NCBI GenBank assembly: GCA_937873495.1
Contig: CALMXZ010000009.1
Location: 1 to 64,000 of the forward strand
Reading direction: 5' to 3'
DNA from: an uncultured Trueperaceae bacterium
Lineage (GTDB): Bacteria > Deinococcota > Deinococci > Deinococcales > Trueperaceae
Length of the DNA: 64,000 bases
This document shows positions 16,338 through 18,146 of the stretch, piece after piece. The notes under the pieces were generated by a model. That model saw only the letters and a program-made list of their open reading frames with translations. It did not search any database and was not told the origin of the DNA. A program made the position numbers and the translations under genes. Numbering within the stretch: the stretch's first letter is position 1; every line of letters starts with the position of its first letter.

Positions 16338-18146
16338 GTGGCGGAACCGGCGGACCTCGGCGCCCGTGTGGCAGCAGACCTGACGCGCTTGGCGCCGGGC
16401 GCAGGGCGCGTCGTCGTGGCCGTGTCGGGCGGCGCCGATTCCGTGGCGGCGGCGCGCCTCCTCGCCGCGGCCGGCCGCGACCTCGTGATCGCCCACTTCG
16501 ACCATCGCCTCAGGCCCGACTCCGGGGAGGACGCCGAGTTCGTGAGGGGCTTGAGCGCGTCGCTCGGGGCGGAGTTCCGCCTCGGGGGCGCCGACGTCGC
16601 GGCGGTAGCGCGCGCCAAGCGCTGGAACCTGGAGGACGCCGCCCGCAGGCTGCGCTACGCGTTCCTGCACGGCGTCCTGCGCGAGGTGGCCCCCCGCGAC
16701 GGTGTGATCGTGGTCGCGCACACCCGCGACGATCAGGCCGAGACGTTCCTGCTCCAGCTCCTGAGGGGCGCCGCTTTCCCGAGCGGCATGGCGGAGTCGC
16801 GCGGTAGCGTCGTCCGGCCGCTCCTCGGCGTCGGACGCGACGAGCTCCGGGCCCACTTGCGCCTTCTGGCACAAGCGTGGCGCGAGGACGCCACCAACGA
16901 CGACCTCAGCCGTAATCGCGCCTGGGTCCGCTCCGAACTACTGCCGAAGCTGGAGGGTCGTTTCCCCGGCGCGGCGCGGCGCATCGCCCACACCGCCTCC
17001 CACCTGGCCGCGGCCGGGGCGACGCTGGAGCGCGTGGCGCGCGAGCGGTTCGGGGAGGGGGAGGTTGACGTCGGACGCCTGGCGGCGGCAGAGCCGGCGC
17101 TGCGGCGGGCGACCATCGCGGCGCGCCTGCGTGCGCTGGGCGTACCGGTCACGCGCTCCGCCATCGCCGACCTCGAGGGCGCCCTCGGCGAGGCGACGAG
17201 GCTCGGTGCCGGCGCGCCGCCATGGCGCCGCGACCTGCCAAGGGGCGTGAGGGCGACCATCGCCTACGGCAGGTTCGGCGTCGGTCGCACGTCCGGCGCC
17301 CCGGTCCGGACGGCGGAACCCCGCCCCGTGACCGCCGCGGCGGACCTGCCCGCCGGCGTGTCCGGGTCGGTGCTTGACAGGCCGGGGCTAGTAATGCGCC
17401 ACCGCCTTCCCGGCGATCGCATCCGTCTGCCCGGCGGCACCAAGCTCGTGAGCGACCTCCTCGTGGACCGCAAGGTTCTCAAGGAGGAGCGCGACCGGCT
17501 CCGGCTGCTTGCCTCCGGCTCGGAGGTCCTGTGGGTCGAGGGGGTGGCCGTCGCGCTCGGGGCCGGCGTACTCGAGCCGGATGCGGACGCCCGCCTCATG
17601 CGCGTCGCGCTCGAGCAGGCGCGCCTGGCCGCCGCGGAGGGCGAGGTGCCCGTCGGTGCGGTGGTGGCGCGCGACGGGGAGGTGCTGGGCGTTGGGCGCA
17701 ACCGCACCGTGGCCGGCCGCGACCCGACGGCCCACGCCGAGGTACTCGCCCTGCGCGCCGCCGCCGAGAAGGTCGGCGACTGGCGCCTCACCGGCTGCAC
17801 CCTCTACGTCACGCTGGAGCCCTGCCCAATGTGCCTCGGCGCCGCGCTGCAGTCGCACGTGGCGCGCGTCGTCTACGGCGCCGCCAACCTCCGCGACGGT
17901 GCGCTCGGCGGGGTGACCGACCTTATGCTCGCGCCCTGGAAGCGCGTACCGGAGGTCGTGGGCGGCGTGGAGGGCGCGGCGGCGGCCCGGCTCCTCAAGG
18001 ACGCCTTCGCGGCGGCTCGTGGCGCGAAGGCGCTGGTGGAGCCTGCTGCAGTGACCGCGGGTCGTGACGCGGCCGGGGCTGATGCCGCGACTGACGCCAG
18101 GACGGACGCCGGGGCCGATGACCCCCGCCAGGACGGCATGAACTGA
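16338..18146 (+). CDS. tilS-tadA: TilS-TadA fusion: tRNA(Ile)-lysidine synthetase and tRNA adenosine-34 deaminase
   Basis: A 602-residue bifunctional protein. The N-terminal TilS half has the PP-loop SGGADS (residues 30-35), [14 protein letters not shown] and [17 protein letters not shown]. The TilS C-terminal domain follows with [18 protein letters not shown] and [14 protein letters not shown]. The TadA half (about 415-570) has the zinc/catalytic HAE (His466, Glu468) and PCPMC (Cys496, Cys499). TilS makes lysidine at C34 of tRNA-Ile(CAU); TadA makes inosine at A34 of tRNA-Arg. A low-complexity Ala/Asp-rich tail of about 40 residues ends it. The frame stays open without a stop between the halves, so this is a real fusion in this sequence. 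The start at 16338 is chosen from the -10 box; 16308 is the alternative. Confidence 0.93.

Follow-up and report, generated by a model that had tools for sequence, protein, structure and literature searches.

The window, that is, the whole stretch of 64,000 nucleotides analysed here from an uncultured Trueperaceae bacterium, carries a gene that encodes a TilS part and a TadA part in one reading frame. The gene, its domains and its neighbours are located as follows, the names of the two neighbours having been given by sequence inspection and not by a search.

16338..18146, forward strand: tilS-tadA fusion gene, 602 codons followed by TGA, with a stop-free translation
16410..16934, forward strand: TilS N-terminal PP-loop ATPase domain (residues 25-199, with SGGADS at 30-35)
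17391..17558, forward strand: TilS_C domain (residues 352-407)
17559..17585, forward strand: variable linker between the halves (approximately residues 408-416)
17586..18023, forward strand: TadA-type deaminase domain (residues 417-562, with HAE at 466-468 and PCPMC at 495-499)
15082..16242, reverse strand: divergent upstream neighbour, which looks like deoB
18175..19962, forward strand: downstream neighbour, which looks like lepA

The lepA-like neighbour starts 28 bases past the fusion gene, and scans for promoters and terminators detected none. An alternative start is offered by an in-frame GTG at 16308, from which the frame is open as far as the fusion, and two close relatives (loci L007 and L008) have GTG at the place of the 16338 start.

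The fusion is confirmed as real and not the product of chance. As the earlier note had claimed, TilS and TadA lie in one protein, with both domain families inside the single stop-free frame: in Pfam, ATP_bind_3 matches residues 25-199 at 125 bits (cut-off 27), TilS_C residues 352-407 at 26.5 bits (cut-off 22) and dCMP_cyt_deam_1 residues 417-514 at 99 bits (cut-off 25), and the NCBIfam models for TilS_N (TIGR02432, 132.1 bits, cut-off 93.6) and TilS_C (TIGR02433, 35.1 bits, cut-off 20.2) are likewise passed. Each of the 60 PDB matches listed spans one half only, e.g. 3a2k for TilS and 2b3j and 1z3a for TadA. The TilS_N and TadA models each match at 1e-5 in all of 45 fusions. Both sets of catalytic motifs, SGGxDS and HxE/PCxxC, are present, as had also been claimed, and are kept in 45 of the 45 aligned fusions, where residues S30, G31, G32, D34, S35, H128 and D132 of TilS and H466, E468, C496 and C499 of the deaminase are invariant. 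Two alignments (A3 and A4) were discarded for having slid C-terminal parts of TilS onto TadA columns, and a third (A5) retains a few stray residues.

The NCBIfam TadA model NF008113 covers residues 418-562 of the window's protein with a score of 127.9 bits, where the cut-off is 150, and all four fused proteins tested as deaminase halves fall below that cut-off, at 129.2 bits for the window's half alone and at 125.1, 89.1 and 74.6 bits for the others, the last being the fused protein of a probable Thermus; stand-alone TadA from viral contig loci score 168-194 bits in five of five cases. A TadA loop of 26 residues, kept by two solved stand-alone TadA aligned to the fusion, is reduced to 20 or 18 residues in families f3 and f4 (6 to 8 shorter, e.g. 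in L094 and L103) and has 22 residues in L104. The deaminase of L104 also carries HGE instead of HAE, plus a divergent loop. The description of this half as a complete TadA has to be qualified by the score below the NCBI cut-off and by the loop shortened in f3 and f4.

Searches of the same genome gave three deaminase matches, namely the fusion and a pair of others (L004 and L005), one of which is nearest to solved cytosine deaminases (132 bits, versus 53 for the best TadA) and the other to a guanine deaminase (105 bits versus 43); on the TadA model these two reach 57 and 49 bits. Separate copies of tilS or tadA elsewhere in the genome would, according to the earlier note, have spoken against its reading; the fusion is the sole TilS above cut-off, and no further TadA-like gene was found in the genome beyond it. 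Since the genome is 96.67% complete, a copy may have been missed. All of the 45 tRNAs found in the genome were read. The arginine anticodons are TCT, CCG, ACG and CCT, with one tRNA-Arg(ACG) as the sole reader of CGU, CGC and CGA among the 45; for isoleucine there is GAT, alongside three CAT tRNAs, and a tRNA-Ile(UAU), with a TAT anticodon, is absent from the 45. The pairs C4-G69 and C5-G68 are marks on tRNA for TilS, and because the CAU tRNA L069 has C at positions 4 and 5, each paired to G, it fits tRNA-Ile2; the other two, judged by their sequences, look like elongator (L074) and initiator (L081) tRNA-Met. No substitute for the TilS or TadA route is visible in the genome among these 45 tRNAs, the one TilS and the three deaminase matches. 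A CAU tRNA that lies upstream of the fusion in two genomes of genus g20, probably Thermus, was considered as a TilS substrate and set aside; it has G4 and G5 and so is probably elongator tRNA-Met.

The fusion is widespread in the phylum, as the earlier note had supposed that it might be. A strong match (E below 1e-50) was obtained in 98 of 111 genomes, all belonging to one order, and in 83 of the 85 good genomes, the exceptions being G030 and G037. In two genomes (G001 and G004) a long linker makes the match begin only at the deaminase, and the frame is still single; in two more (G105 and G023) the open frames are short, with 422 and 224 codons, and are apparently cut by contig ends. The assemblies of the 13 genomes lacking a strong match consist of 140 to 660 contigs, and a TilS search of these 13 was above cut-off in G107 only, the other 12 having no clear TilS, so that both halves are missing together. 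In genus g11 the gene occurs in one of seven genomes, and G015, G024, G032, G035, G037 and G038 are without TilS and fused TadA; these absences are likely due to incomplete bins, TilS being presumably needed. A frameshift between the halves in other assemblies had been named as evidence that would count against the fusion, and it was found once, against the 98 genomes with a strong match: in G107, whose assembly is 87% complete, 57 bases separate the halves, which are in different frames (L114:4700-4790, reverse strand). The shift falls at a run of eight C, which suggests an assembly error, and it is probably one.

Outside the phylum, the sample examined was small and comprised 30 TilS loci, 21 genomes and plasmid records. 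TadA was not encoded next to TilS in any of the 30 loci of other groups (up to 3 kb on each side), and no match crossed the join in the 21 genomes, a subset of those 30 selected to avoid near repeats, in which no TadA match began before model position 48. Among plasmid records, 95 matched the fusion query, none over 80% of it. A literature search, with most subscription journals beyond its scope, found no description of a TilS-TadA fusion, and the available parts of PMC6313347, PMC7694415, PMC10454642 and PMC3711424 do not mention it; the architecture may already be displayed in protein databases such as UniProt.

In a tree of TilS halves, the 46 fused sequences form one group against 27 others, with one change, a support of 88/83 and recovery in 84% of bootstrap trees. 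A tree that included six other deaminases placed the fused TadA halves among TadA rows, with the long-branched, cytosine deaminase-like L004 falling among the fused rows; the final tree of TadA halves leaves out these six, L004 included, and separates 46 fused from 32 other sequences by two changes, a single change being seen in 10% of bootstrap trees. A single origin would fit these trees, although the deaminase tree alone does not prove one. The fusion looks like an old and fixed one, which would have been present since the base of the order.

The reading that we prefer, at a probability of roughly 0.8, is that the gene encodes one bifunctional tRNA-modifying enzyme, which would have arisen by a single old fusion and whose parts would be largely independent. 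The N-terminal TilS part would attach lysine to C34 of tRNA-Ile(CAU), whereby AUA would be decoded as isoleucine, and the C-terminal TadA part would deaminate A34 of tRNA-Arg(ACG) to inosine, allowing CGU, CGC and CGA to be decoded. In the ancestor of the order, one old fusion event could have taken the place of two separate genes; its main consequence would be an equal supply of two needed enzymes from one transcript, and the two parts, held by a flexible tether, would act for the most part independently of each other.

It is unlikely that the parts instead cooperate, with the TilS C-terminal domains serving as a tRNA platform for a deaminase that no longer makes all of its own contacts to tRNA. 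Such cooperation would be in line with the scores of the fused TadA halves, four of four below the TadA cut-off, and with families f3 and f4, in which the loop has dropped from 26 to 18-20 residues and the linker is shortest as well. The linker as a whole points the other way. The stretch aligned with V400-M421 varies from 9 to 69 residues over 45 proteins, with 9-14 residues in f3 and f4 and 20-69 in other families, and within the window's own genus the linker ranges from 22 to 69 residues; it is also the least conserved part of the fusion, the mean share of the commonest residue being 0.30 for the linker, 0.63 for TilS_N, 0.38 for the middle of TilS, 0.58 for TilS_C and 0.62 for TadA. Variation of this extent, together with poor conservation, speaks against a rigid shared geometry. 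The earlier note's reading is supported in part, the common docking of tRNA and the coordinated regulation of decoding that it suggested being conjectural. Moreover, the substrates of TilS and TadA differ, and each enzyme works alone in other organisms. A predicted structure, computed from an alignment in which the window's protein was the sole fused row, has good quality at residues 10-235 and 414-566 and poor quality in the stretch that separates them, and its pTM of 0.50 gives no information on the packing of the domains.

A move of the deaminase half to a substrate other than tRNA-Arg, at which its score under the NCBI TadA cut-off might hint, is very improbable. Its best PDB matches are TadA structures, and the genome yielded no second TadA candidate, yet tRNA-Arg(ACG) is there the only reader of three codons. 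On a family profile, the fused halves, to which the profile was fitted, score 148-232 bits versus 101-107 for four of the top-scoring unfused deaminases from the phylum; the best unfused deaminase among the matches listed has 111 bits, the TadA half of G107 (160.7) not being counted as unfused, and in 16 of 21 genomes from other groups a stand-alone TadA has 150-204 bits. There is scarcely any likelihood that the halves are made or cut as separate proteins and that their common frame is functionally meaningless, as the two frames of G107 and the variable linker could be taken to indicate, for the frame is single and open through both halves in 46 of 46 loci (the window and 45 other genomes, chosen by their match in the fusion search), the 9-14 residues between conserved blocks in f3 and f4 are hardly enough to hold a cleavage site or a start signal, and the run of C at the G107 join points to an error in assembly.

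At its 3' end, the fusion gene meets a tRNA gene in some relatives. In g20, which is represented by 27 genomes in the survey, the fusion frame enters a same-strand tRNA-Ser(CGA) gene at 24 of 24 loci, by 22-23 bases except in G094 (L147), where the overlap is 47 bases, and the fusion stop of G081 and G092 likewise lies inside the tRNA-Ser(CGA) gene.

L090, L093, L094, L096, L097, L114 and L133-L152, same strand as the fusion: loci with the fusion stop inside the tRNA-Ser(CGA) gene

In f3, the tRNA-Ser gene lies 3-11 bases past the fusion stop, at the other f4 loci 52-167 bases and at L017 39 bases; at L099 it is 1.6 kb from the fusion, and the other loci of f1, f2 and f5 that were read, including the window, have no tRNA-Ser within 700 bases (L019 runs off its contig). 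The overlapping gene is the only convincing tRNA-Ser(CGA) copy by similarity in eight of eight genomes tested, an additional call in L182, of 77 bases on the opposite strand, having been taken as false. In maturing tRNA-Ser(CGA), RNase P would cleave the transcript ahead of the fusion stop codon. It could be imagined that, in the probable Thermus, each transcript yields either tRNA-Ser(CGA) or a properly ended editing enzyme, RNase P removing the stop; we regard this as improbable. If true, it would tie tRNA supply to tRNA editing. Nothing on point was found in the literature on the overlap of the fusion stop with tRNA-Ser.

Two enzymes that determine how the wobble base is read, and that are normally separate, have apparently shared one protein from the root of the order onward. 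With its TadA half below the NCBI cut-off, the gene may be labelled in annotation as TilS only, and surveys based on gene names could wrongly infer that tadA is missing from Deinococcota bacteria with the fusion. The fusion is also a natural test case for the question whether enzymes of the wobble base benefit from a common grip on tRNA. It counts as unusual, not as revolutionary, a bifunctional enzyme being the plain reading.

Compared with known systems, the fusion has in common with TilS (3a2k) the PP-loop domain with SGGxDS and the TilS_C domain, both above curated cut-offs, and differs from it in carrying a C-terminal deaminase and in not reaching the full-length PRK10660 model (68 of 606 bits). 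With TadA (2b3j, 1z3a) it shares HxE and PCxxC, and its deaminase half aligns nearly over the full length, but this half is part of a larger protein, scores under the TadA cut-off and has a shorter loop in f3 and f4. A parallel in architecture is the known TilS/HprT fusion of Listeria, annotated as bifunctional in the Listeria records of the plasmid set, in which TilS is likewise joined to a second enzyme; there, however, the partner is an enzyme of purine salvage, not a tRNA enzyme.
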